Source: an uncultured Bacteroidales bacterium (GTDB lineage Bacteria; Bacteroidota; Bacteroidia; Bacteroidales; UBA932). From it: a DNA stretch of 64,000 nt. The notes beneath the pieces are model-generated. The model was not told the DNA's origin. It made no database searches and was given only the letters and a program-made list of their open reading frames with translations. The position numbers were made by a program, and so were the translations under genes. This document shows, piece by piece, positions 24,721 through 58,635 of the stretch. How positions within the stretch are numbered: the stretch's first letter is position 1; each line of letters starts with the position of its first letter. Location: the NCBI GenBank assembly GCA_900316675.1, contig ONDR01000011.1, positions 1 through 64,000 on the forward strand. The letters run 5' to 3'.

Positions 24721-27700
24721 TCACAACTTGCTCAATTCCAGCAGCAGAGAATAAGCTTTTTCCAGAGAGTTGACGTTTCTGGATATCAATCTTAGCTTCT
24801 GATCCGTATTCTTAAGCTCGTATTTTTTATCGTTGATGCTTATAGATTCAAGTATCTTGGAGAAAGTCTTGTCCCTGTAGTAAGGAGACATCGGATTGGC
24901 AATGAAGAAATCTATCATTATGCCGTTCTTGATAATGATTTTCTCAAAGCCCAACTTTTCTCCAAGATGCCTTATCTTGACAACGTAAATAAGACTCTTG
25001 ACTTCCTGAGGCAGCGGACCGAACCTGTCTTCCAACCTTTTTGCAAGGGCATCCAGCTGCTCGTCGGATGTTGTAGAATCCAGGTCTTTGTAGATTCTTA
25101 TCTTTTCTGCAGTCACATCTATATAATCATCAGGAATCATAGCCTGCTGATCGGTATCGATGGTACAGTCTTTTACATAATTATCCCTTGTCAGACGTGC
25201 TGTAAGGCCGGTTTCTACACCAAGCTCTTCCATTGCCTCTGATAAAATCTTCTGATATGTTTCATAACCCATGTCAGAAATAAAACCACTCTGCTCTGCT
25301 CCAAGAAGATTGCCGGCTCCTCGGATATCAAGATCCTGCATGGCTATATTGAAACCACTTCCAAGGTCAGAGAATTCCTCTATTGCCTTAAGGCGTCGAC
25401 GGGCCTCGTCGGTAAGGGTGGTAAGCGGCGGAACAATAAGGTAGCAGAAAGCCCTTCGGTTAGACCTGCCCACACGGCCTCTCAACTGATGCAGGTCACT
25501 AAGACCAAAGTTCTGTGCCTGGTTGATTATTATTGTATTGGCGTTGGGTATATCCAGTCCGTTCTCTACGATGGTGGTGCAAAGAAGCATATCGTAGTCT
25601 CCCTGCATAAAGTCCAACATCTTATTTTCCAATTCTTTAGCCTCCATCTGCCCATGGGCGATGCAAATCTTCATATCAGGCACAAGGCGCTGGAGGATTT
25701 CTGCAATGGCGGGAAGTTCTTCTACCTTATTATGTAAGAAGAATATCTGGCCACCTCGGTTCAGCTCATAATTCAGGATGCCGGTAATCTCTTCCTTATC
25801 GAAGAGTATAATTTCTGTCTGGGTAGGTATCCTGTTCGGCGGAGGAGTGCTAATAATAGAAAGGTCTCTTGCCCCGAGCAAAGAGAATTGAAGGGTTCGG
25901 GGAATAGGGGTTGCCGTCAAAGTAAGTGTATCTACCGACATCTTCATCTGACGGAGCCTTTCCTTTGCACTTACTCCGAACTTTTGTTCCTCGTCTATTA
26001 TAAGAAGGCCTAAATCCTTGAATTCGAATTCTTTAGACAGTATTTTATGGGTACCAACAAGTATGTCTATCCTGCCTTCTTTAAGGTCTTTTTTTATGGC
26101 CGATATTTGTTTTGCGGTACGAAGGCGGCTTACATATTCTACCCTGCACGGGAAGTTTTTAAGCCTTTGTTCGAAGGTTTTGAAGTGCTGTAAGGCAAGT
26201 ATGGTTGTAGGTACAAGCAAAGCAACCTGCTTATTGTCTGCAACTGCCTTGAATGCAGCCCTGACGGCAATTTCAGTCTTTCCGAAACCAACATCGCCGC
26301 AAACAAGACGGTCCATGGGGCTATTGTCTTCCATATCCTCCTTCACAGCCTTTGTAGCGGACTGCTGGTCAGGTGTATCTTCATACATAAAGGACGATTC
26401 CAACTCTTCCTGAAGGTAGGTATCGGCAGAAAAGGCAAAGCCTTTGGATGCCTTTCTTTTTGCATAAAGCTGGATGAGTTCCTTTGCTATATCCTTAACC
26501 TTCGATTTTGCGGAATTCTTAAGGTTCTGCCAGGTCTTGGAGCCGAGCTTATTAATTCTTGGAGGCTCTGATTCCTTTGATTTATAGCGGCTTATCTTAT
26601 GAAGTGAATGAACTGATACAAATACAACATCGCCGTCTTTGTACATCAGCTTTACAACCTCGTTCATACGGCCTTTATCGTCTCGCATGCGCACCAGGCC
26701 GCCAAATACACCTACTCCGTGATCGATATGAACTATATAGTCTCCAATATTGAAGGAACTCAATTCATTAAGGGTAAGCTGCTCACTCTTATCTACCGTC
26801 CTTCTTAATACTACCCTATGGAAGCGGTCGAATATCTCATGATCCGAATAACAACATATCTTGTCGCTGTTATCTATAAATCCGTTGTGGATATTCTTAC
26901 CTTTAATAAATTCAGGTATTATACCGCCGGCTGCCGTCAGAATATTATTTATTCTTTCTATCTGGGCTTCTTTTTCTCCGAAGATACATACCCTGTAACC
27001 CTGCTCAGTCTTTGTTTTTATATCTGCGGTAAGCAGCTCGAAGTTTTTATTAAATACAGGCTGGGGGCTGATATTAAACTTTACAGGCTCTTCTTCTACA
27101 CCTCCTAAAGGAACTTCCAGAAAGACTCTTTTAAAGTTTTCTGTCATCCGGAAGAATTCCTTTCCTTTATACATATCGGAAGAATCCATCCAAATGATGG
27201 AATCGGCAGGAAGTATACTTAATATACTGGTGTCGGAGGTTTCTCCTTCTTCTCCGGTAAGGTCAGGATAAATTTCGGCAACATCAACCTCACTTGTTGA
27301 AAGTTGGGTATTGCAATCGAAAATGTTTATTTTCTCTATTTCGTTACCGAATAACGATATTCTGAACGGATTATTGTAAGAGTATGAAAATATATCAATT
27401 ACAGAACCTCTGAATGCATATTGTCCCGGTGCTGATACAAAATCTGCTTTTTCGAAACCTGAATTTGAGAGTGTTGTTTTAAGATCCTCGTAATCAATAT
27501 CTTCTCCCTTCTTCAGTTTTATTATTGACTCTTTAATCTTATTTCCGGACGGGATGAGTTCTTCAAGAGCCTCGGGATAAGTAACTAGTACAAGGAGGTC
27601 ACTTTCATTTGAAACAAGTTTTCCTATTGATGATGTTCTTTGAACGGACAGTGAAGACTTGTAGTTACTCTTTTCTATATTCTTTCCTGAGTCGGGAAGA

Positions 27701-27915
27701 AAGAATACTTTATCTCCTTCTATTAAGTTGTAAAGATCAGCCGAACAATATTCTGCAGTTTCTTTTGTAGGAAGGATAATAAGATGAATTCCTTCCTTTG
27801 CTATATCAGAAAGCACAAACCACCTGGCAGACAGAAATAATCCACTGCAATAAGTATTGTAAGAAGTTGATATTCTTTTATTTAAGAGTTCTGTTTCTTT
27901 ACTGCAAATCTTCAT
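24721..27915 (-). CDS. mfd: Transcription-repair coupling factor
   Basis: A DNA translocase that removes stalled RNA polymerase and recruits UvrA. ATG at 27915 (MKICSKE) gives 1064 residues; an upstream in-frame start at 27942 is less likely. The order is an N-terminal UvrB-like module (APGQYAFRGSVIDIFSY), an RNA-polymerase-interacting domain (GDYIVHIDHGVGVFGG), helicase motifs GDVGFGKTEIA and DEEQKFGV, LTATPIPRTLQ and QLRGRVGRS, and a C-terminal TRCF domain. The gene is visibly more A+T-rich than genes at 6-22 kb. It lies left of the candidate origin and points away from it. Confidence 0.97.
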   Translation of the reverse strand: MKICSKETELLNKRISTSYNTYCSGLFLSARWFVLSDIAKEGIHLIILPTKETAEYCSADLYNLIEGDKVFFLPDSGKNIEKSNYKSSLSVQRTSSIGKLVSNESDLLVLVTYPEALEELIPSGNKIKESIIKLKKGEDIDYEDLKTTLSNSGFEKADFVSAPGQYAFRGSVIDIFSYSYNNPFRISLFGNEIEKINIFDCNTQLSTSEVDVAEIYPDLTGEEGETSDTSILSILPADSIIWMDSSDMYKGKEFFRMTENFKRVFLEVPLGGVEEEPVKFNISPQPVFNKNFELLTADIKTKTEQGYRVCIFGEKEAQIERINNILTAAGGIIPEFIKGKNIHNGFIDNSDKICCYSDHEIFDRFHRVVLRRTVDKSEQLTLNELSSFNIGDYIVHIDHGVGVFGGLVRMRDDKGRMNEVVKLMYKDGDVVFVSVHSLHKISRYKSKESEPPRINKLGSKTWQNLKNSAKSKVKDIAKELIQLYAKRKASKGFAFSADTYLQEELESSFMYEDTPDQQSATKAVKEDMEDNSPMDRLVCGDVGFGKTEIAVRAAFKAVADNKQVALLVPTTILALQHFKTFEQRLKNFPCRVEYVSRLRTAKQISAIKKDLKEGRIDILVGTHKILSKEFEFKDLGLLIIDEEQKFGVSAKERLRQMKMSVDTLTLTATPIPRTLQFSLLGARDLSIISTPPPNRIPTQTEIILFDKEEITGILNYELNRGGQIFFLHNKVEELPAIAEILQRLVPDMKICIAHGQMEAKELENKMLDFMQGDYDMLLCTTIVENGLDIPNANTIIINQAQNFGLSDLHQLRGRVGRSNRRAFCYLIVPPLTTLTDEARRRLKAIEEFSDLGSGFNIAMQDLDIRGAGNLLGAEQSGFISDMGYETYQKILSEAMEELGVETGLTARLTRDNYVKDCTIDTDQQAMIPDDYIDVTAEKIRIYKDLDSTTSDEQLDALAKRLEDRFGPLPQEVKSLIYVVKIRHLGEKLGFEKIIIKNGIMIDFFIANPMSPYYRDKTFSKILESISINDKKYELKNTDQKLRLISRNVNSLEKAYSLLLELSKL

Positions 27916-27943
27916 AAACAGGGTAATATGAATTATCGGCAAT

Positions 27944-28119
27944 TGTTGATAAGTCTGTTAATAACCGTGTTGAAAACTATTTTACAAGCTGTTTATATTT
28001 TTTCCCGTTTTTGGACGATTATATTCTCAACTTCATTTCAATAATTTTTCAGCAATTTTATTAACAACGAATTTTTACCTAAATAATTGAGAATCAAAGG
28101 CCGTTTTTGGTTATCAACA
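27944..28119. other. Candidate replication origin (oriC) in the mfd-ruvB gap
   Basis: The gap 27916-28193 is strongly A+T-rich and has no gene. It contains nonamers close to the DnaA box TTATCCACA: TTATCAACA at 28111-28119 and, on the minus strand, at 27944-27952; TTATTAACA at 28058-28066 and, on the minus strand, at 27956-27964; TTTTCAACA on the minus strand at 27969-27977. ATTCTCAA (28023-28030) and TTGAGAAT (28087-28094) form an inverted repeat around a very A+T-rich core. Gene direction diverges here and parS-like sites lie 9-11 kb to the right. dnaA is not adjacent. Confidence 0.55.
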
Positions 28120-28162
28120 AATTCACAACAATATTACCATCTTCTCATATCCAATTATTTTA

Positions 28163-28170
28163 TATCTTTG
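28163..28170 (+). promoter_or_regulatory. Promoter -7 box for ruvB
   Basis: TATCTTTG matches TAnnTTTG, 23 bp before the ruvB ATG at 28194. This supports the short ruvB reading. Confidence 0.55.
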
Positions 28171-28193
28171 TATATATAAATTTTTCAAACTCG

Positions 28194-29246
28194 ATGGAAG
28201 AAGAATTGAACCCTTACGCATCGGCCGCCGACAAAGATAAGTATTTAGAGGGAATTATAAGACCACAAGAGCTGGAAGAATTTACAGGTCAGCCTAAAAT
28301 AGTGGCTAACTTGAAGATATTCATCCAGGCAGCTAAACTAAGAGGCGAGTCACTAGACCATGTTTTACTCCATGGCCCTCCCGGCCTTGGTAAAACCACA
28401 CTTGCTCATATTATAGCAAATGAGCTTGGGGTAAATATGAAGATTACTTCAGGTCCTGTTCTGGATAAGCCCGGTGATCTTGCCGGTTTGCTTACATCCC
28501 TTGAAACGGGAGATGTTCTGTTTATAGATGAAATCCACCGTCTTTCGCCGGAGGTAGAGGAATACCTCTATTCTGCAATGGAAGACTATGTGATAGATAT
28601 CATGATTGATAAGGGTCCCGGGGCAAGATCGGTACGAATATCACTTAATCCTTTCACTCTGGTTGGTGCAACAACAAGAAGCGGTTTGCTTACTGCTCCG
28701 TTAAGGGCAAGGTTCGGCATTACATGTGCACTGGAATATTATGGTTCAAAGGAGTTGATAAGAATTATAAAGCGCAGTGCATCTATATTAAAGGTAGAGA
28801 TAGAAGAAGAAGCTGCCACAGAAATTGCACTTCGCAGCCGTGGTACTCCAAGAATAGCAAATGCCCTGCTTAGAAGGGTGCGTGATTTTGCCCAGGTTCA
28901 GGGTAACGGACGTATAGATTTAGAAATTGCAAAAGTTGCCCTTGATGCCCTGAATAGGGATAAGATGGGTCTTGACCTTATAGATAATAAGATACTCCAT
29001 ACTATTATTACTAAGTTCAACGGAGGTCCTGTAGGAATTAATACAATTGCAACTGCAGTAGGAGAAGATCCCGGAACTATAGAAGAAGTGTACGAACCCT
29101 TCTTGATAATGCAGGGATTTATTCAGAGAACTCCTCGTGGACGTATAGCTACTGATTTATCTTACAAGCATTTAGGCCTTGAAAGTTATAAATCAGGAAA
29201 GGGATCGTCAGACGGTCTTGAAATCATAGAAAACAGTTTATTTTAA
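28194..29246 (+). CDS. ruvB: Holliday junction branch migration ATPase RuvB
   Basis: Hexameric AAA+ motor that drives branch migration with RuvA. ATG at 28194 gives 350 residues, the usual size; the frame is open to 28107, but the promoter box at 28163 lies in that extension. Motifs: [12 protein letters not shown], Walker [10 protein letters not shown], Walker B DEIHRL, sensor [18 protein letters not shown], and the C-terminal winged helix ([14 protein letters not shown]). ruvA is separate, at 37741-38331. An Ntn-hydrolase gene starts 4 bp after it. Confidence 0.97.
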
Positions 29247-47436: not shown

Positions 47437-49991
47437 TGGAAAGTAACAACGGTTACACCGCTGCCTCCCATTTGTATATGCTCATCCTTCACCTGAGCGA
47501 TGCCGGGCACTGTTTTCAGCAGTTTCTGTATCTCTTGGTGCAGCACGCCTGTCCCCTTTCCGTGGACGATGCGCACTGACGGCATATCCAGCATTATTGC
47601 ATCATCTACAAAACGCATCACCCTTTCCAGGGCGTCCTGCAGGCGTTCGCCGCGAACATCCAGCTCCGGCTTAAAGTTAAGCTTGCGCTCCATGATTGCC
47701 GGATCCTGCACCTGCATTGGCTTATTGGCTGCGGGGATGTTTTTTACCGCCGCCTTGTACTCGTTGGAAGAGATGCGTACTATCTTATCTACGGTAACTT
47801 TGCTGGAAATGTTTCCTACTGCAATCAAAACTGACTTTCCTGACACCTTGGTAATCTCTCCAACCATGCCGTTGGACTTGATTTTCACCTTCTCCCCCAC
47901 TGTCAGCGGGCCGCTACGGAGTACGGCTTCTTCTGCAGGCTGCGGCGACGTAGCTGCATCTGCCGCCGTGGCGGCGTTTTTACCGGCCCTAAGCGCGCGC
48001 TTTTTAGCCTCGCGGGCCGTGCGGTCCTCCAGCTGCTTTATTTTATTGTCGATATAGGCGTCGTGATTCTTCTTCTGGGTCTCTTTCTGCTGAGTCAGTG
48101 CGCCCAGGAAGCCCTGCAGCTGCTGGCGAGCCTCTTTTGTACGCTCTTTCTCTGCCTGAGCCTCTTTGATAGTGCGGATAGTGCTCTCTACCTGCCTGTT
48201 TGCCCCCTTCACAATGTCCTCCGCCTCTTTCCGGGCCTGTTCTATTATGTCCTTTTTCTGTTTGCGGATGTCTTCCAGCTCTTTCTGGTAGCGGCCTGTT
48301 ATACTTTCCAGCGCCTTGTCCGTGTGGCGGATTTTTTCAAGCTTTTCGTCCAGCGCACGCCGGTTGCGGACTATCTTCCGAAGGTTCCTTTCAATGCCGA
48401 CATACTCCTCCCCTGCCCGTTCCTCTGCATCCTTAACGATGCTTTCCGGCAGGCCAATTTTCCTGGCCAACTCAAAGGCGAACGAGTTGCCCGGCAGGCC
48501 GGTCTCCAGTTTGAAGAGAGGCACGATATTCTTGGCATCGAACTGCATCGCACCATTTATTACACCCACGCCCTCGCGCGAGGCGTACAACTTCAGGTTG
48601 GTGTAATGCGTGGTAAGTACGCCATAGACTCCCCTGCGGTCAAGCTCGCTCAGAATGGCCTCTGCAATTGCGCCGCCGGCGGCAGGTTCTGTACCGCTGC
48701 CAAGTTCGTCAATCAGCACCAGGGTATGCTCGTCCGCAACGGCAAGCATCTCTTTCATGGACTGAAGGAAAGAACTGTATGTGCTTAGGTCGCTTTCCAG
48801 GGACTGACCGTCGCCGATATCGACCATTATTCTGTTGAAAATGGTCATCTCTGACGTTTCTGATGTAGGAATCAGCATTCCCCACTGGAACATGTATTGC
48901 AGCAGGCCCACGGTCTTGAGGCAGACGGATTTACCGCCGGCATTGGGCCCTGATATCAATAATATATGCTTGTCCTTGTCCAGGCTGGCGGTAAGCGGAA
49001 CAATTTGCTTGCCCTCTTTTTTAAGATTCTTCTCCAACAGCGGGTGGCGGGCCTTACGAAGGTGCATCTCCCCTTCTTCCGATATCACCGGCATGCCGGC
49101 AATGTATTCCAGGGCAATCTGAGCCTTGGCCATGATAAAGTCCAACTCCCCTACGCAAATGGCGCCTTTTATAAGGTCCGGAACATAAGGCCGCAGGAAG
49201 TCGCTGAACTGCGACAGGATGCGGAATATCTCTCTGGACTCTGCAAACCGCAGTTCGCTAATCTCGTTCTCCAGGGCAACTACCTCCGCCGGTTCTATGT
49301 AGGTTGTTTTTCCCGATGCGGATTCGTCAAACACAAAGCCCTGAAGCCTCTTTTTTTCTGACGTGTTGACGGGGATCAGCATTTTGCCGTCCCTTATGGT
49401 AATGGAAGCATCGGCATCTACAATGCCTTCTGACTGTGCTTTTTTAAGGATGGCGTTGGCTCTTTTGGACAGCGAGCCCTCTTTGTCCCGCAGTTGTCCG
49501 CGAATTTGCAAAAGCTCGTCCGACGCAGTGTCTTTAACATTGCCGAACTTGTCTATGATGCGGTCGATCCGGCGCGATACTTCAGGGAATACCTTCACCT
49601 TTGCGACAAACCTCTTCAGGTTGGGATAGACCCCGTCCTTAACGCCGTCAAAGAATGCAGCCACTTTGCGCAGCGTTTCTGACAGGGTGCGCAGCTTGCC
49701 AAGAGAGAACAGGTCTATATTGGCTCCATCGTTTTCAAGAACCTTAAGAAAGTCAATGCAATCTATATATCCGCTTGTGGGAAAGCCCTCTTCGAACATC
49801 AGAATAAGGCGCATTTCGTCCGTAAGGAGCAGGCGTCCCCTGATCTCCTTTACCGATGCGGATAACTCCTCTGTGGCGGCCCTGGACGCTGCATATTCGG
49901 TGCTGCATTTGTCCGACACCGCCTGGCGGACCCGGTCAAATCCCAGCTTCGCCTCTAATTTAAAATCTATGTTAGACTCTGTTCCGTTCAT
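47433..49991 (-). CDS. mutS2: MutS2-family endonuclease/ribosome-splitting ATPase
   Basis: An 852-residue protein of the MutS2 family, implicated in blocking recombination or rescuing collided ribosomes. Walker A GPNAGGKSV with DELGSGTEP marks the MutS-type ATPase. A long coiled coil with KOW-like insertion follows, and the C-terminal Smr nuclease domain has LDVRGERLQDAL and HGKGTGVLHQ. Length is slightly above typical. It overlaps cdaA upstream and yraN downstream by 4 bp each, so the three genes form one operon. Confidence 0.95.
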   Translation of the reverse strand: MNGTESNIDFKLEAKLGFDRVRQAVSDKCSTEYAASRAATEELSASVKEIRGRLLLTDEMRLILMFEEGFPTSGYIDCIDFLKVLENDGANIDLFSLGKLRTLSETLRKVAAFFDGVKDGVYPNLKRFVAKVKVFPEVSRRIDRIIDKFGNVKDTASDELLQIRGQLRDKEGSLSKRANAILKKAQSEGIVDADASITIRDGKMLIPVNTSEKKRLQGFVFDESASGKTTYIEPAEVVALENEISELRFAESREIFRILSQFSDFLRPYVPDLIKGAICVGELDFIMAKAQIALEYIAGMPVISEEGEMHLRKARHPLLEKNLKKEGKQIVPLTASLDKDKHILLISGPNAGGKSVCLKTVGLLQYMFQWGMLIPTSETSEMTIFNRIMVDIGDGQSLESDLSTYSSFLQSMKEMLAVADEHTLVLIDELGSGTEPAAGGAIAEAILSELDRRGVYGVLTTHYTNLKLYASREGVGVINGAMQFDAKNIVPLFKLETGLPGNSFAFELARKIGLPESIVKDAEERAGEEYVGIERNLRKIVRNRRALDEKLEKIRHTDKALESITGRYQKELEDIRKQKKDIIEQARKEAEDIVKGANRQVESTIRTIKEAQAEKERTKEARQQLQGFLGALTQQKETQKKNHDAYIDNKIKQLEDRTAREAKKRALRAGKNAATAADAATSPQPAEEAVLRSGPLTVGEKVKIKSNGMVGEITKVSGKSVLIAVGNISSKVTVDKIVRISSNEYKAAVKNIPAANKPMQVQDPAIMERKLNFKPELDVRGERLQDALERVMRFVDDAIMLDMPSVRIVHGKGTGVLHQEIQKLLKTVPGIAQVKDEHIQMGGSGVTVVTFQ

Positions 49992-50797
49992 TTATTTTCG
50001 CTCTGACCGGACTCTGCGCCAAGCAGCAGTTTAAGTTCGTTCATGTTACCGATGGTGGTAATGTTGCCACCTTTGACGTACGATACCCTTCCGGTTTCTT
50101 CTGACACTACAATTACTTCTGCATCCGACTCTTCCGTTATGCCGATGGCGGCCTTGTGCCTCATGCCGTAGTAGGCAGGCAAATCAGACCGGGACGTGAT
50201 GGGCAAGGTGCATCTGGCCGCATTGATGCGGTTGTCCTGAATTATCATCGCTCCGTCGTGAAGAGGGGAGTTCTTAAAGAAGATATTCATTATCAGGCGC
50301 CTGTTGATGGTGGCGTCAATCTTGTCTCCAGTGGATATGATATAGTCCAGATTGTCATTGTGCCTTAGGACTATAAGCGCGCCGGTTTTTTGTTCCGACA
50401 TCCTTCTGCAGGCCTCTGTAATCTCGTTTACCACGGTGTTGTCCATGGACGCCTGGCGGCCGCCAAACATTTTTTGCAGCACTTGCCTACCGGTGGAACT
50501 GATTTTTGTCTCCGATCCCACCCTGTACAGGAAGTGGCGGATTTCCGGTTGGAAGATAACAATCAGGGCCAGTACGCCAACGTCGATAAAAGCGCCCAAC
50601 AGGGCTTTCATCAGCTTCATGTTAAGGGCGTCGGCCACTACCAGAAGCACGTAAATGATGATTATCGCCACAAAGATGTTTATGGCGGTGGAGTTGCGTA
50701 CCCACCTGAAGATCGCAAAGATAATCAGGGATACAATCAGTATGTCTATGACGTCCGTGAGCGACAGGCTCAGAAACCCGAAAATTGCAGCCGGCAT
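49988..50797 (-). CDS. cdaA: Diadenylate cyclase CdaA
   Basis: Membrane-bound enzyme making cyclic di-AMP from two ATP. The 269-residue protein has about three N-terminal membrane helices (residues 15-82), then the DAC domain with DGA at 181-183 and the RHR motif present as RHK (213-215). The ybbR-type regulator gene often next to cdaA is not here; mutS2 overlaps its 3' end by 4 bp. The Lys for Arg at the last RHR position may be a lineage variation. Confidence 0.93.
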   Translation of the reverse strand: MPAAIFGFLSLSLTDVIDILIVSLIIFAIFRWVRNSTAINIFVAIIIIYVLLVVADALNMKLMKALLGAFIDVGVLALIVIFQPEIRHFLYRVGSETKISSTGRQVLQKMFGGRQASMDNTVVNEITEACRRMSEQKTGALIVLRHNDNLDYIISTGDKIDATINRRLIMNIFFKNSPLHDGAMIIQDNRINAARCTLPITSRSDLPAYYGMRHKAAIGITEESDAEVIVVSEETGRVSYVKGGNITTIGNMNELKLLLGAESGQSENK

Positions 50798-50940
50798 ATG
50801 TTTCTAATCAAATAGCTTACAAAAATAAGAATTGAAACGTTCTTTTACAAGAGGTTAACTGTAATTGTGTGGCAGGGTGAATAAAAAAGGTAAAAACCGG
50901 GGGAATGTTGAAAAAATTGTTGAAAAAGTTGCAGAAAGTA

Positions 50941-51032: not shown

Positions 51033-51656
51033 ATGCCTGGATTAATTGGAAAGAAAATCGGAATGACTTCCGTTTTCGGTGCTGATGGAAAAAATATTCC
51101 ATGCACCGTAATTGAGGCTGGTCCGTGCGTTGTTACGCAGGTTCGTACAGTAGAAAAAGATGGTTATGCCGCTGTACAGCTTGCCTATGACGAAATCTCA
51201 GAAAAGCACGCCAGCGCCCCGCTGAAAGGGCATTTTGCAAAGGCAGGAACCACACCTAAGCGTAAGCTTGTAGAATTCTCTGCAGACTTCAAAGGTGAAC
51301 TTAAGCTCGGTGACACCGTATCACTTACTGACGTCTTCACTGACGTTCCGTTCGTAGACGTTGTCGGAGTATCCAAAGGTAAAGGTTTTCAGGGCGTTGT
51401 TAAGCGCCACGGATTCGCAGGTGTAGGCGGCGTGACCCACGGTCAGCACAACCGTCTTCGTCACCCCGGATCAATGGGTGCATCCTCTTGGCCTTCACGC
51501 GTATTCCCCGGAATGCGTATGGCAGGTCACATGGGTTGCGACAGGGTTAAGGTTACCAACCTTGCTGTCCTCAAGCTCATCCCTGAGAACAATCTCATCG
51601 TAGTAAAAGGCTCTGTTCCCGGAGCTAAGGGTTCTTATCTGATTTTGGAGGCATAA
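51033..51656 (+). CDS. rplC: 50S ribosomal protein L3
   Basis: A 207-residue 50S protein near the peptidyl-transferase centre. It starts [12 protein letters not shown], and the glycine-rich loop [31 protein letters not shown] is present. Usually the second gene of the S10 operon after rpsJ; here it is first, with its own promoter. rplD follows after 4 bp. Confidence 0.97.
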
Positions 51657-51660
51657 GACT

Positions 51661-52290
51661 ATGGAAGTAAAAGTTTTGAAAATTGACGGAACCGAGTCTG
51701 GGAAGACCGTGGTTCTCGACGATAAGGTATTCGGCATTACCCCTAACGATCATGCCATCTACCTTGACGTAGTTCAGTACCTCGCAAATCAGCGTCAGGG
51801 CACTGCCAAGACAAAGGACAGAAGTGAAGTTGCATACAGCACCAAGAAGCTTGGTCGTCAGAAGGGCGGCGGTGGCGCTCGTCACGGTTCCCTCAAGGCC
51901 GGTATCTTCGTAGGTGGTGGTAACATCCACGGTCCGAAGCCCCGCGACTACAGGTATAAACTCAACAAGAAGCTCAAACAGCTTGCAAGATTCTCAGCCC
52001 TCTCTTACAAGGCTCAGGACAACGCCATCAAGGTGGTAGAGCCTTTCGTAATGGATGCTCCCAAGACTAAGGAGTTCATGGGCATTCTCAATGCAATCAA
52101 AGCAGGCGACCGCAAGGTTCTCTTCGTTCTTCCTGAGAACTCTGCAAACATTTATCTTTCATCACGTAACCTCCCGGACGTTAAGGTTATCACTGTTGAC
52201 GAGATCAACACTTACAACGTAATGAATGCATATTCAGTTGTATTTGTAGACGGCGTACAGGATGTCCTCAACTCCAGAGCTAACTGCTAA
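51661..52290 (+). CDS. rplD: 50S ribosomal protein L4
   Basis: A 209-residue 50S protein lining the exit tunnel. The conserved loop KLGRQKGGGGARHGS contacts rRNA, and VDEINTYNVMNAYSVVF closes the globular domain. In some bacteria L4 autoregulates the operon; the leader here carries only a short hairpin. Confidence 0.97.
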   Translation: MEVKVLKIDGTESGKTVVLDDKVFGITPNDHAIYLDVVQYLANQRQGTAKTKDRSEVAYSTKKLGRQKGGGGARHGSLKAGIFVGGGNIHGPKPRDYRYKLNKKLKQLARFSALSYKAQDNAIKVVEPFVMDAPKTKEFMGILNAIKAGDRKVLFVLPENSANIYLSSRNLPDVKVITVDEINTYNVMNAYSVVFVDGVQDVLNSRANC

Positions 52291-52302
52291 ATTTATTGAG
52301 AG

Positions 52303-52593
52303 ATGGGAATTTTAATTAAGCCAATCGTAACAGAAAAAATGACGGCTCAGGGCGAAAAGTTGAACCGTTATGGTTTCATAGTAGACCGTTCTGCTAACAA
52401 AGTACAGATTAAGGCCGAGGTAGAGCAGATGTACAACGTAACCGTTGCTTCTGTCAATACTGTTAACTACAATGGTAAGAAGAAAGCCCGCTTCACCAAG
52501 GCCGGTCTTCTCCGCGGACGTGCCAACCACTTCAAGAAGGCATACGTTACCCTCGCAGGCGAAGATAAGATTGATTTCTATGCAAACATTTAG
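52303..52593 (+). CDS. rplW: 50S ribosomal protein L23
   Basis: A 96-residue protein at the tunnel exit that docks chaperones and the secretion machinery. It shows KPIVTEKMTAQ, the family start, and YNGKKKARF. It lies in the usual place between rplD and rplB. Confidence 0.96.
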   Translation: MGILIKPIVTEKMTAQGEKLNRYGFIVDRSANKVQIKAEVEQMYNVTVASVNTVNYNGKKKARFTKAGLLRGRANHFKKAYVTLAGEDKIDFYANI

Positions 52594-52605
52594 GAGGGAT
52601 AGGCA

Positions 52606-53430
52606 ATGGCAGTAAAGAAATACAAACCGGTTACCCCCGGACAGAGAAACAAGGTTATCAGCGCATTCGATGATATCACTTGCAAGACTCCTCAGAAATC
52701 ATTGCTGGAGCCCCTCAAGAGAACAGGCGGACGTAACAACACCGGTCAGATGACCATGCGTTACATCGGTGGCGGTCACAAGAAAATGTACCGTATCATC
52801 GACTTCCGTCGTAATAAAGACAACTGCACAGCGACCGTATTGACAATCGAATACGATCCTAACCGTAGCGCCCGCATCGCCCTTGTACAGTATGAGGATG
52901 GCGAGAAGAGATATATCATCGCCCCTAACGGTCTCAAGGTAGGTCAGGTTATCGCTTCCGGTTCAGGTGTTGCTCCTGATATGGGCAACTCGCTTCCTCT
53001 CGCAGAGATTCCGGTAGGTACTCTCGTACACAACATCGAGCTCCGTCCCGGTCAGGGTGCCGCTATGGCACGTAGCGCCGGTACTTTCGCACAGCTCGCA
53101 GCACGTGAAGGCAACTACGCAGTACTTCGTCTCCCTTCCGGTGAGACCCGTATGGTACTTGTAACCTGCCGTGCTACCGTTGGTACCGTTTCCAACCCTG
53201 AACACAATCTGGAGTCCTATGGTAAGGCCGGCCGCAGCCGTTGGCTTGGCCGTCGTCCCCACAACAGAGGTGTTGTTATGAACCCTCATGATCACCCTAT
53301 GGGTGGTGGTGAAGGCCGCGCCTCCGGTGGTCACCCTCGTTCTCGCAAGGGTCTGCCTGCAAAGGGATACAAGACACGTAATCCTAAGGCTACTTCAAAC
53401 AAGTTCATCATTGAAAGAAGAAAGAAATAA
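52606..53430 (+). CDS. rplB: 50S ribosomal protein L2
   Basis: A 274-residue core 50S protein. The C-terminal [20 protein letters not shown] loop, needed for peptidyl-transferase activity, is intact, as is [19 protein letters not shown] near the N-terminus. Standard length and position. Confidence 0.97.
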
Positions 53431-53452
53431 TCGGAATTAAACTTTAGGAATT

Positions 53453-53725
53453 ATGAGTCGTTCATTAAGAAAAGGTCCGTATATCCAGGAAGCCCTGGAA
53501 AAGAGAGTTCTTGCTATGAATGATGGTAGCAAGAAGAAAGAAGTTGTCAAGACTTGGTCACGCGCAAGTATGATCTCTCCTGACTTCGTCGGCCACACCA
53601 TCGCTGTTCATAACGGAAATAAGTTCATTCCGGTTTATGTTACAGAAAACATGGTTGGTCACAAGCTTGGCGAGTTTGCACCTACCAGAAATTTCAGAGG
53701 CCATTCGGGCAACAATAAGAAGTAA
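53453..53725 (+). CDS. rpsS: 30S ribosomal protein S19
   Basis: A 90-residue protein of the 30S head. It starts [11 protein letters not shown], with [22 protein letters not shown] and [14 protein letters not shown]. It follows rplB by 22 bp. Confidence 0.97.
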
Positions 53726-53745
53726 AATTTTAATGATTTGAAATT

Positions 53746-54165
53746 ATGGGAGCTCGTAAAAGAATAATGGCCGAAAAGCTGAAAGAGGCTAAGAGGCAGA
53801 CAGCTATAGCAAAACTCAATGACGTCCCTACCTCTCCCCGTAAAATGCGTCTGGTAGCAGACACAGTAAGAGGCGTGGAAGTCAACCGTGCACTTGATCT
53901 TCTCAAGTTCTCCAAGAAGGCACCTTCAATCCCTCTTGAGAAGCTTCTCCGCAGCGCAATCGCTAACTGGGAGGCTAAGAACCCTGAGCAGTCCAAGGAA
54001 CTCGATAATGGTAATGTATATGTAAAGACCATCATGGTCGGTGAAGGCCGCACTCTTAAGAGAATCCGCCCCTGCCCTCAGGGCCGTGCCGGACGTATCC
54101 GCAAGCGCAGCAATCACGTTACCATCGTTCTTGATGTTAAGAAAACCGCAACAGTGGAGGCATAA
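53746..54165 (+). CDS. rplV: 50S ribosomal protein L22
   Basis: A 139-residue exit-tunnel protein with [14 protein letters not shown] and the terminal [13 protein letters not shown]. The first 20 residues ([17 protein letters not shown]) are a basic extension; an internal Met at 53767 is an alternative start. rpsC starts 2 bp after it. Confidence 0.95.
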
Positions 54166-54167
54166 AT

Positions 54168-54935
54168 ATGGGACAGAAAACAAATCCTATCAGCAACAGA
54201 ATCGGTATCACCCGTGGTTGGGACTCTAACTGGTGTGGTGGTAACTATGCGGAGAAAATAGCAGAAGACTACAAGATCCGCAAATATCTTGAGAGCCGTC
54301 TTGCAAAGGCAAGCCTCTCTAAGATTGTCATTGAAAGGACTCTTAAGCTCATCACCGTCACCATTCAGGCTGCAAGGCCCGGTGTTATCATCGGTAAGGG
54401 TGGCGCAGAGGTTGACAAGCTTAAGGAAGAGCTCAAGAAGGTAACCGGTAAGGAGGTTCAGATCAACATCTACGAGGTTCGTCGCCCTGAGGTTGACGCT
54501 CGCATCGTTGCTGACTCCATCGCTCGTCAGATCGAGGGCCGTGTATCTTACAGAAGGGCCATCAAGATGGCAATCGCATCTGCAATCCGCGTTGGTGCAG
54601 AGGGTATCAAGATCCAGATCAGCGGCCGCGTTGGTGGTGCTGAAATGGCTCGCAGCGAAATGTTCAAAGAGGGTCGTACTCCTCTTCACACTTTCCGCGC
54701 CGATATCGACTATGCACTTGCAGAGGCTCATACCAAGGTTGGCGTTCTTGGCGTCAAGGTATGGATCTGCAACGGCGAGGTTTACGGAAAGAAGGATCTT
54801 TCTCCTAACGCCGGCGTAGCAGCCAATGCAGCTCAGGCACAGGGTCAGGGTCGTCCCGGCCGTGGTGGCAACGAGCGTGGCGGACGCGGCGGTGCACGCC
54901 GTCCTCGCAGGAATAGCGAAGCCAGAGGTGAATAA
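54168..54935 (+). CDS. rpsC: 30S ribosomal protein S3
   Basis: A 255-residue protein at the mRNA entrance. It starts [13 protein letters not shown], and the KH domain [15 protein letters not shown] and the C-terminal domain [20 protein letters not shown]-type region are present. The last ~40 residues form a Gly/Arg-rich tail ([20 protein letters not shown]), longer than in many S3 proteins. In this window it is the last gene of the operon: a terminator follows within 40 bp, and rplP, rpmC and rpsQ are absent. Confidence 0.96.
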
Positions 54936-54970
54936 TCTTTGAATTTTAAAGAAATATTCACTATATTTAC

Positions 54971-55006
54971 GGCCGGTGCAGCAATAAAACGCTGTGCCGG
55001 CCTTTT
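54971..55006 (+). terminator. Strong terminator after rpsC
   Basis: GGCCGGTGCAGC (54971-54982) pairs along all 12 bp (two G-U) with GCTGTGCCGGCC (54991-55002), followed by TTTT. The hairpin lies directly before the tlpA-like start at 55010. TATATTTA at 54962-54969 could be a weak promoter for that gene. Confidence 0.85.
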
Positions 55007-55009
55007 GCC

Positions 55010-56080
55010 ATGAAAAGTACATATCTCTTTGTCCTAGCGGTAATTGCCGCTCTGACGGCTTCCTGCGGCCCTAGGTATTCGGTCGTTACGGGAGATTTTG
55101 GGGATAAATCAGCACCGGACAGTGTTAGCATTTTTATTCCCAACCTTGGTCAAACAGAACGTGTACCCGTAGAAAACGGTGTCTTCGTAGCCAAGATTCC
55201 ATATTCCCTTATCAATTCTGCATTTGTAGAAGACGTTTACGTTATTCCTGACGGAAAGGATCTGACAATTGATTTTTCCGGCTCGGAGCCAATTTTGAAT
55301 CCGGGCGAGTCGGAAATCAATATCAGAGCTGTAGAGTTCCTGAAGGCGTCGGACAAGCTTCTGAAAGAGAGGGCTGAATTTATGTCCCAGTATATGCAGT
55401 CCATCAATGCCAAAGAGGTTGTTTCCGCAGATTTTGTCACAAAATATGTCAAGATAGAGGAAGACATCCGTTCCCTTTGCAACGAGACTATGTCCAAAAA
55501 CTGGGATAATGACCTTAGCCTGCAGGCATTGAGCACTATAAGCCGGTATATTTCCGACGAAGAAATTGAGGCTAAGATCGACTCCCTGTCCATTGAGCTT
55601 CAGTCAAGCCCGTCTGTCCTTAAGATAAAGGGCGACATTGAAATCAGGAACAGGACTGCAGAGGGCCGTATGTTCACAGATTTCACCGCAATGGACGAGG
55701 ACGGAAAGGTCACTTCCAAGTTCTCCGATTATATTGGAAATGGAAATTATGTACTTGTAGATTTCTGGGCTTCGTGGTACGAGCCTTGCTTGGAGAATCT
55801 TGAGCGGGTTGACAAAATATACAAAGAATATAAGGACAAGAATTTTGTAGTCTTGGGTATCCCCGTATGGGACAGGGTATCAGAAGCGTCAAAGGTGGTG
55901 GCGGCCAAAAAACTTAAATGGAATATGATATATCAGTCAGACGTAGATATTGCTGAATTGTATTGTATCCCTCACGTTCCTACGCTGATTCTTTTTGGCC
56001 CGGATGGTACCATCCTTCACAGAGACTTGTCCTTGAAGAAGTTACGCGAGGCTCTGGAAGAGTATTTCCGCGCCGAATAA
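55010..56080 (+). CDS. TlpA-like lipoprotein with degenerate thioredoxin active site
   Basis: A 356-residue lipoprotein (lipobox LTASC, Cys19). The N-terminal domain, roughly 25-210, resembles the DUF4369 type of Bacteroidota redox lipoproteins. The C-terminal thioredoxin fold (YVLVDFWASW ... IPHVPTLILFGPDG) has a cis-Pro loop, but the CxxC reads Y257-E-P-C260, so the attacking cysteine is lost. It is unlikely to be a normal disulfide reductase. It occupies the slot where rplP normally follows rpsC. It could act as a binding protein; role unknown. Confidence 0.85.
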   Translation: MKSTYLFVLAVIAALTASCGPRYSVVTGDFGDKSAPDSVSIFIPNLGQTERVPVENGVFVAKIPYSLINSAFVEDVYVIPDGKDLTIDFSGSEPILNPGESEINIRAVEFLKASDKLLKERAEFMSQYMQSINAKEVVSADFVTKYVKIEEDIRSLCNETMSKNWDNDLSLQALSTISRYISDEEIEAKIDSLSIELQSSPSVLKIKGDIEIRNRTAEGRMFTDFTAMDEDGKVTSKFSDYIGNGNYVLVDFWASWYEPCLENLERVDKIYKEYKDKNFVVLGIPVWDRVSEASKVVAAKKLKWNMIYQSDVDIAELYCIPHVPTLILFGPDGTILHRDLSLKKLREALEEYFRAE

Positions 56081-56083
56081 AGA

Positions 56084-57877
56084 GTGGATATAAGAGAGAA
56101 AATAGCAACATTTCCACATTCCCCCGGAGTTTATAGATACTATGACTCTGAGGGGAAAATATTATATGTGGGTAAGGCTAAGGATCTTCACAAGCGCGTA
56201 GCGCAGTATTTTGTGCCCGCAGAGCGCCTTAACACCAAGACCAGGATACTGGTGTCCAAGATAGCTGATGCACAGTATTCGGTGGTTGATTCAGAGGCTG
56301 ATGCCTTGCTTTTGGAGAATAATCTTATCAAGCAGTACAAGCCCAAGTATAACATCCTTCTCAAGGACTCAAAGACTTATCCCTGGATATGCGTGACGGC
56401 AGAAGAGTATCCGCGCGTTTTCCTGACCCGTACGCTTAAGAAGGACGGCAGCCGGTACTTCGGGCCATACAGCAGCGTAATGCACGCCAGAGCCCTTCTG
56501 GAGCTCTTCAGCGAGCTTTATCCGCTGCGTTCCTGCCGCCTGAAGATTACAGGCGAAGCTATTCTGCGAAAAAAGTTCCGTCCCTGCCTTGAATTCCACA
56601 TCGGCCGCTGTAAAGGTTGCTGTGTAGGCGGGGTATCCCTGCAGGAATATAATGGCTGGATTGATGAAATAAGCAGCCTCCTGAAGGGCGGAGCACGTGA
56701 TCTGATAAAACACTACCGCTCCCTTATGGGAGAGGCCGCAGAGCGCCTGGATTTCGAGCAGGCGGCGGTTTACAAGGAAAAGATGGAACGCCTTGAAGGG
56801 CATTACGCCAAATCAGTGGTTTCATCGGCCTCCGGCACCGATGCCGATGTCTTTTCTTTGCTTACTGATGCCGGCGATGCCTACGGCAACTTCCTCCGCG
56901 TTCGCGGCGGCGCCATTGTGCAGTCCATCAACCTTGGCTTCAAGATGAATATAGAGGAAGAGAAGGAGGCCATTCTGAGCGAGTTTATTGCGGAGGTCCA
57001 AAGCAAGTTCGGCACCTTGGCAAAAGAGGTTATCGTACCTTTCATGCCGGATGTAGAGATGGACGGCACAGAGTTTAGAATCCCCGCAAAAGGGGACAAG
57101 CTGGCGCTGTTGGAGCTGAGTGCCCGCAATGCCCGGGAATACCGTGCCAACAACCTTAGGCAGAAAGAGAAGGCGGACCCCGGGGAGTATCGCACCAAAA
57201 TAATGGAAGACCTAAGGAAGGCGCTTGGAATGAAGGTTCTGCCGCAGCACATGGAGTGCTTCGACAATTCCAATATCCAGGGCACGAATCCCGTGGCTTC
57301 GTGCGTGGTGTTCCGTGACGGTGTGCCCAGTAAAAAAGATTACAGACGCTTTAAGATAAAGACAGTAATTGGCGCAAACGACTATGCTTCCATGAAGGAG
57401 GTGGTCAACCGCCGCTATGCAAGGATGCTGGAAGAGGCCCCGGAAGACCTGCCGCAGCTTGTGGTAATAGATGGCGGCAAAGGCCAGCTGGACTTTGCTT
57501 ACCAGGCCCTGCAGGAACTGGGCCTTACTGATAAGCTTACCGTAATAGGTCTTGCAAAGCGTCTGGAAGAGGTTATAAGGGTAGGGGACCCTTATCCGCT
57601 GTTCATTGACAGGGATTCGCTTGCGCTCAAAGTTCTGCAGCAGATTCGCGATGAAGCTCACCGCTTTGGTATTACATTCCATCGCAACCTGCGCAGCAAG
57701 GCACAGATAGATTCCGCCCTGCGTTCGATAAAGGGCGTAGGGGAGCGTCTTGAACAGCGTCTGCTCATGCATTATGGCTCAGTTGCCAGAATTGCTGCAA
57801 CATCTCAGGAAGATTTGGCATCTTTCCTTGGCAATGCCCCGCTTGCTAAACGTATACTAGAATCCTTACAATTATGA
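56084..57877 (+). CDS. uvrC: Excinuclease ABC subunit C
   Basis: Makes both incisions in nucleotide excision repair with UvrA and UvrB. The 597-residue protein starts at GTG 56084. The GIY-YIG domain is GVYRYYDSEGKILYVGKAKDL. A Cys-rich region is FRPCLEFHIGRCKGCC, the UVR motif is DFEQAAVYKEKMERL, and the RNase H-like domain has ECFDNSNIQG and VVIDGGKGQL; C-terminal HhH motifs end the protein. It overlaps pnuC by 4 bp. Confidence 0.96.
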   Translation: MDIREKIATFPHSPGVYRYYDSEGKILYVGKAKDLHKRVAQYFVPAERLNTKTRILVSKIADAQYSVVDSEADALLLENNLIKQYKPKYNILLKDSKTYPWICVTAEEYPRVFLTRTLKKDGSRYFGPYSSVMHARALLELFSELYPLRSCRLKITGEAILRKKFRPCLEFHIGRCKGCCVGGVSLQEYNGWIDEISSLLKGGARDLIKHYRSLMGEAAERLDFEQAAVYKEKMERLEGHYAKSVVSSASGTDADVFSLLTDAGDAYGNFLRVRGGAIVQSINLGFKMNIEEEKEAILSEFIAEVQSKFGTLAKEVIVPFMPDVEMDGTEFRIPAKGDKLALLELSARNAREYRANNLRQKEKADPGEYRTKIMEDLRKALGMKVLPQHMECFDNSNIQGTNPVASCVVFRDGVPSKKDYRRFKIKTVIGANDYASMKEVVNRRYARMLEEAPEDLPQLVVIDGGKGQLDFAYQALQELGLTDKLTVIGLAKRLEEVIRVGDPYPLFIDRDSLALKVLQQIRDEAHRFGITFHRNLRSKAQIDSALRSIKGVGERLEQRLLMHYGSVARIAATSQEDLASFLGNAPLAKRILESLQL

Positions 57878-58635
57878 ACGAAAAGAAATTCAATAAGATT
57901 TTTGGAACCACGCTGATGGTTCTTATGATAGCCGTTATCGTCTGCATTACCATTATAAAAGCAGGCCGCGAAGATGCCAAGCTGCCGCTTTTGCTCATTG
58001 CGTCCTTCGGTACGCTGATGGGCTTTACGTCGGCAATACTGTCTGCCAACGGCTATATTTGGACCTTCCTGTTTGGAATTCTGGACGTTGCCGCCTGCTC
58101 TGTCGTTACGGCGGATAACGGTGCCTGGGGCGATTTTGGCCTGCATGTATTCTACCTGCTGCCGATGCAGTTCGTGGGTATATGGCAGTGGAGAAGAAGG
58201 GGCGCTAAGGGCGCCAAGAAAGAGGTTCAGGCGCGCAGGCTTACATGGAAGCAGCGCGGCTATATCGCCGCAGGCTCGCTGGCCGTACTTGCAGTTGCGT
58301 ATGTTATCCTGCTAAAGATTCAGGCTGCTACCATCGCTCCGGGGATGGAGGTTAATAAGGCTAAGGTTTTCTTTGATGCGGCCGTTCTTACCTTCAACAT
58401 TGTAGGCCAGATACTGATGTCCCTGGCTTATATGGAGCAATGGGTGCTCTGGAATGTCGTCAACGTGTCCAACATCGGCCTGTGGGGCATAATTATGGTT
58501 ACAGAGCCGCAGGGCGACTACACCATCGTAATGTCCGTCAAGTACTGCTTCTACCTGGTTAACTCTATCAACGGCCTTCGCATCTGGCTCAAGCTTAGCC
58601 AAGCCCCCGCACCCCATAGCACCGGATGCTGCTAA
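57874..58635 (+). CDS. pnuC: Nicotinamide riboside transporter PnuC
   Basis: A 253-residue integral membrane protein with about seven hydrophobic helices that imports nicotinamide riboside for NAD synthesis. PMQFVGIWQW and YMEQWVLWNVVNVSNIGLW match the conserved WxxW...N repeats of the family. It ends KLSQAPAPHSTGCC. It overlaps uvrC by 4 bp; functional linkage is not obvious. A terminator follows at 58688. Confidence 0.88.
   Translation: MNEKKFNKIFGTTLMVLMIAVIVCITIIKAGREDAKLPLLLIASFGTLMGFTSAILSANGYIWTFLFGILDVAACSVVTADNGAWGDFGLHVFYLLPMQFVGIWQWRRRGAKGAKKEVQARRLTWKQRGYIAAGSLAVLAVAYVILLKIQAATIAPGMEVNKAKVFFDAAVLTFNIVGQILMSLAYMEQWVLWNVVNVSNIGLWGIIMVTEPQGDYTIVMSVKYCFYLVNSINGLRIWLKLSQAPAPHSTGCC

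Follow-up and report, generated by a model that had tools for sequence, protein, structure and literature searches.

The mfd-ruvB intergenic region as a probable chromosomal replication origin of Candidatus Cryptobacteroides, with a possibly base-swapped DnaA-trio

The window, by which we mean the whole 64,000-nt stretch of DNA that was analyzed, corresponds to contig C17 in a draft genome of 2.05 Mb that comprises 28 contigs and is 97.1% complete. Its RuvB protein has named relatives in Bacteroidales MAGs, several of which are assigned to Candidatus Cryptobacteroides. In this window, mfd and ruvB are transcribed away from each other on either side of an A+T-rich gap (Table 1), in agreement with a preliminary description in which the genes to the left run left and those to the right run right. 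The same description proposed a chromosomal origin at this gap and listed five nonamers close to the DnaA box, all of which we found where they had been placed. Three of the five form an array with a 12-bp period, and a spacing of 11-12 bp within box arrays was seen again in relatives. At 28111-28146 the gap has the layout of a Basal Unwinding System (BUS), that is two boxes, 4 nt and a run of triplets, followed by an A+T tract that extends up to ruvB. The interval originally delimited (27944-28119) captured the boxes correctly, although it ended where this unwinding module (28111-28190) begins.

Table 1. Positions of the genes and sequence elements at the mfd-ruvB gap, in window coordinates.
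Feature	Position	Strand	Remarks
Candidate oriC, entire mfd-ruvB intergenic region	27943..28193	.	251 bp, 74.5% A+T
mfd (transcription-repair coupling factor), left flank	24721..27942	-	TIGR00580
ruvB (Holliday junction helicase), right flank	28194..29246	+	ATG at 28194; NF000868
DnaA box TTATCAACA	27944..27952	-	1st of leftward 12-bp-period array
DnaA box TTATTAACA	27956..27964	-	2nd of leftward array
DnaA box TTTTCAACA	27968..27976	-	3rd of leftward array
Inverted repeat, 8 bp	28023..28094	.	ATTCTCAA at 28023-28030, TTGAGAAT at 28087-28094
DnaA box TTATTAACA	28058..28066	+	At about -136 relative to ruvB; also in many relatives
TTGAGAATCAA	28087..28097	.	Part of the partly conserved TTGANNATCAA element
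Main DnaA box TTATCAACA	28111..28119	+	First box of the BUS-like module (box 1); at -83 relative to ruvB
Second, weaker tandem box AATTCACA	28120..28127	+	WWTCAACA in relatives
4-nt spacer ACAA	28128..28131	+	Length as in Priestia and Staphylococcus
DnaA-trio-like triplets	28132..28146	+	TAT TAC CAT CTT CTC
A+T-rich tract	28147..28190	+	Presumed duplex unwinding region
TATCTTTG, putative ruvB promoter element	28163..28170	+	Within the A+T tract

Other elements of the gap were less constant. The 8-bp inverted repeat noted in the preliminary description is present in the window but is not conserved as such in relatives, where only a short TTGANNATCAA-like element at its right arm is partly kept, approximately 14-24 bp ahead of the main DnaA box. 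This element is not an IHF-type site. An IHF site between the boxes was considered and rejected as a general feature, since WATCAANNNNTTR occurs in 4 of the 73 loci (expected number, 0.7). Upstream of ruvB, TATCTTTG matches TAnnTTTG, which we take to be the Bacteroidota-type -7 promoter consensus.

To assess the box cluster we used the clade motif TTWTYAACA, which was derived from the site itself. The window contains 12 copies where 2.85 are expected, a count that no shuffle reached. Five of these fall in the 251-bp gap, compared to a mean of 0.11 and a maximum of 3 in 5000 dinucleotide shuffles (0/5000 reached five). Across the whole 2.05 Mb, read in stretches, we counted 104 copies, and the gap is the only site in the genome with at least three per 300 bp. 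Likewise, on a 674-kb contig of a relative, the mfd-ruvB cluster is the only place with this density. An equal density of such nonamers in other A+T-rich gaps would have spoken against the origin; among 236 windows of 250 bp with at least 68% A+T, those with three or more boxes all overlap the gap. When we searched with the E. coli consensus TTATCCACA, the gap did not stand out at up to one mismatch and was only joint second at two mismatches. The cluster is thus evident with the box of the clade itself, and an origin here would be missed if the E. coli box were used for searching.

We then asked how far this arrangement is shared. The genus set comprised 80 named Candidatus Cryptobacteroides loci, 78 of which carry both mfd and ruvB, and in all 78 the two genes are adjacent and divergent with 2-6 boxes between them. 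The other genomes of the genus that we read also keep this architecture, a divergent mfd-ruvB gap with a box cluster. The main box lies within -96 to -66 of ruvB in 73/78 loci, and box positions are fixed across the 78 loci despite otherwise diverged intergenic sequence. Two mfd-ruvB gaps from the same genus (L126 and L127) have insertions of ∼100-250 bp on the mfd side that carry G+C-rich inverted-repeat sequence and leave the box module intact. Outside the genus, in the loci read from other families of the order, mfd does not adjoin ruvB and no such box cluster was found upstream of ruvB, which indicates that the mfd-ruvB address is genus-specific. A plasmid similarity search with the intergenic region gave weak chance matches only.

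The preliminary description had foreseen that the origin need not lie beside dnaA, and dnaA indeed sits on another contig, with no box found in the 5 kb scanned at its locus. An oriC far from dnaA has been reported for this phylum (PMC4755523). That much was already known for Bacteroidota; what the present sequences would add is the Cryptobacteroides address and, if confirmed, the swapped trio described below. An operon of the S10 type for ribosomal proteins (rplC, rplD and the genes after them; 51033-58635) starts 23 kb to the right of the gap and is directed away from it; we counted its start there in favor of oriC. The operon is preceded by a diadenylate cyclase gene (49988-50797, minus strand). 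Upstream of rplC, at 50906-50926, we also noted a tandem pair, TTTTCAACA-ATT-TTTTCAACA, and similar pairs occur in several other genomes of the genus. We rejected it as a second conserved site, the pair being absent at that place in the relative G016. In another genome of the phylum (G608), fifteen scattered copies of TTATCAACATWTCCACA are each followed by partly shared sequence and apparently represent a dispersed repeat containing tandem boxes.

GC skew changes sign at the gap within the window. Genome-wide the skew is weak, and the left-right contrast at the gap reaches only the 83rd percentile of the genome. Skew is higher on the right of the gap in 39 of 52 relatives. On a 577-kb contig of the relative G013, all sampled stretches to the left were negative and all those to the right were positive. 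In G016, the cumulative minimum lies ∼22 kb from the gap, and comparing the 20 kb on either side (±20 kb) gives a contrast of opposite sign. Skew in Cryptobacteroides is weak and in part displaced, and provides at most partial support for oriC. As a test of the method, we turned to Prevotella sp. oral taxon 299, whose chromosome skew is clear, reading ∼650 kb in all, with the 1.0-1.25 Mb region chosen by sampling. The cumulative skew minimum fell at 1,147,217 and a TTWTYAACA cluster at 1,146,850-1,147,062, ∼155 bp away, the only such cluster in the ∼650 kb read.

To characterize the unwinding module, we aligned 74 loci without gaps, anchored on the box at -83 from ruvB. Box 1, TTATCAACA, occupies columns 0-8 and the weaker box, WWTCAACA, columns 9-16, followed by four spacer bases. 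In the triplet stretch, A is conserved at the centers, +22, +25, +28, +31 and +34, at frequencies of 0.81-0.89, and the remaining columns are mostly 0.2-0.6 A (+35 reaches 0.72), so that no other column among the 15 is as rich in A as any of the five centers. When the 15 bases of each sequence were shuffled, none of 5000 shuffles reached this phase bias, and shuffles also failed to match it once the set had been thinned at 70% identity to 54 sequences. The window's own triplets are partly decayed, with a central A in three of five. Further towards ruvB, the columns are mostly 80-100% A+T, falling near the ruvB end, and this tract holds the TAnnTTTG promoter element.

A BUS is defined by tandem co-oriented boxes and a run of triplets within ∼16 bp, with a spacer of 10-13 bp from the better box (PMC8287927). 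The module conforms to this geometry, its first triplet starting 12 bp after box 1. On the strand with its 3′ end at the box, where a BUS would carry triplets of the form 3′-NAN-5′ (consensus GAT), the module lacks them. Because the conserved A lies on the other strand, we regard the module as a BUS variant and not as a standard member. In known systems, the strand captured by DnaA, with its 3′ end at the box, reads 3′-GAT-5′ (PMC8235120, PMC6669920). Correspondingly, the triplet center on the box strand is T in our Bacillota controls, and the conserved base at this center is A across the 74 Cryptobacteroides loci. With A at the center of the box strand, the captured strand would therefore carry T, often as 3′-GTA-5′ or 3′-GTT-5′.

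The DnaA residues that read the trio also differ. In B. subtilis DnaA, Asn187 and Glu183 read the central adenine, and Arg202 and Glu228 read the guanine (PMC10721633). When residues were assigned by alignment to structure 8btg, the DnaA of this genome retained none of the four (N187 to I, E183 to S, R202 to M and E228 to A). In the Parabacteroides and Phocaeicola proteins, residue 187 is V, 183 is H, 202 is L or I, and 228 is T. Separately, domain IV of the DnaA of this genome (G000 C4:48774-50147) reads GGRDHATV, not GGRDHTTV, and the A is found in Parabacteroides and Phocaeicola as well; this substitution might go with the change of box from TTATCCACA to TTATCAACA.

A search for tandem boxes across the phylum, which made no assumption on the following sequence, returned canonical CTA runs (in lineage f142), mixed runs (in other f142 members) and A-centered runs (in f154, f153 and, ambiguously, f128). 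Several of these hits lie ∼1 kb from dnaA, which supports them as origins. N187 accompanies canonical CTA runs in f142, f149, f135 and Bacillota, and I or V accompanies the swapped form in Cryptobacteroides and f153. Lineage f128, which has N187 with an ambiguous run, breaks this pattern, and the covariation of residue 187 with trio type is at this stage only suggestive. Two further lines were set aside. A box-box-triplet pattern allowing 1-2 mismatches gave mostly noise across the order, and the controls produced hits in similar numbers. The Prevotella triplets (CAT TAT AGT AAT CAT CAT), considered as proof of a swapped trio, look A-centered when counted from box 1 and can equally be taken as canonical when counted from box 2.

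What we observed, in 74 related loci, is the swapped center; its recognition by DnaA is our interpretation. We consider it an evenly balanced proposition that Cryptobacteroides origins use a base-swapped DnaA-trio, with T on the captured strand, read by a DnaA in which a hydrophobic residue replaces the adenine-reading Asn187, and that initiator and origin specificity changed together within the phylum. Such a joint change within a single phylum is proposed because other Bacteroidota show canonical, mixed and swapped forms. Instead of reading a swapped trio, DnaA may capture the opposite strand. Our literature search found no paper pairing the DnaA-trio with Bacteroides, and whether DnaA homologues read trios without a central adenine has been left as an open point (PMC8287927, PMC10721633). 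A swapped trio, if true, would answer that question and would provide a naturally occurring initiator and origin with which changes in this specificity could be studied.

Taken together, the unique box cluster, its conservation throughout the genus, the geometry of the unwinding module and the match at the Prevotella skew minimum support the original proposal, and we conclude that the mfd-ruvB gap is very probably the chromosomal replication origin of this Candidatus Cryptobacteroides genome. The boxes could alternatively be operator sites through which DnaA regulates mfd and ruvB, both DNA-repair genes, with no origin involved. Transcriptional regulation by DnaA occurs in other settings, and divergent promoters share this gap, with the ruvB promoter element inside it. 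Regulation of this kind nevertheless predicts neither a period-3 run that follows a tandem box and 4-nt spacer in the Bacillota register nor the sole cluster of the genome. Two opposed box arrays next to a tract of 80-100% A+T also suit an origin better, and we judge operators to be very unlikely.

Still less likely, in our estimate, is a locus that titrates or reactivates DnaA while the true origin lies elsewhere. Loci of the datA and DARS type in E. coli do hold DnaA-box clusters outside oriC, and the ∼22 kb displacement of the skew in G016 would fit such a role. Against this, neither the genome studied here nor contig C1 of G016 has a second cluster that could serve as the origin, the stretch scanned at dnaA has no box, and the unwinding module is conserved at the gap itself. 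The least probable explanation, which we hold to be extremely improbable, is that A+T-rich intergenic DNA matched a loose, post hoc motif by chance. The motif did come from the site, and a scan with the E. coli consensus leaves the gap inconspicuous, but no shuffle placed five boxes there, and the Prevotella match at a skew minimum is independent. The fixed box positions in 78 loci with otherwise diverged intergenic sequence already contradict chance.

From the arrangement of these elements we infer how DnaA binding, filament loading, melting and initiation would proceed at the proposed origin. DnaA would bind the leftward box array near mfd and the rightward set near ruvB, and the tandem boxes at 28111-28127 would seed a DnaA filament that crosses the 4-nt spacer onto one strand of the triplets. 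The filament would then open the A+T-rich tract upstream of ruvB, leading to helicase loading. An origin address for this large uncultured gut genus could be used for growth-rate estimates from read depth and for replicating vectors.

Compared to known systems, the candidate resembles E. coli oriC in having two oppositely oriented box arrays at a chromosomal site away from dnaA, and differs from it in its boxes and flanking genes and in that no IHF-type site was found. The predicted oriC of Prevotella intermedia and those of other Bacteroidota combine multiple DnaA boxes with a skew transition far from dnaA (PMC4755523), and the candidate shares with them the multiple boxes and the distance from dnaA. 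The gene address differs: in Prevotella sp. oral taxon 299, hcp-like and sigma-factor-like genes (names read from ORFs) flank the cluster, and ruvB is ∼150 kb away. The closest likeness in layout is to the BUS of the Bacillota dnaA-dnaN gap (B. subtilis type; PMC6669920, PMC8287927, PMC10721633), which has the same tandem co-oriented boxes, 4-nt spacer, triplets and A+T tract. The Priestia gap reads TTATCCACA TTTCCACA GCCC CTA TTA CTA CTA CTA and that of S. epidermidis TTATCCACC AATCCACA GTGC CTA CTA CTA TTA CTA, beside TTATCAACA AATTCACA ACAA TAT TAC CAT CTT CTC in the window. The box-box-4 nt-triplet register of both matches that of Cryptobacteroides base for base. Unlike the Bacillota origins, that of Cryptobacteroides would not lie beside dnaA, and it has TTATCAACA as its box, A and not T at the triplet center, and a DnaA with different pocket residues.
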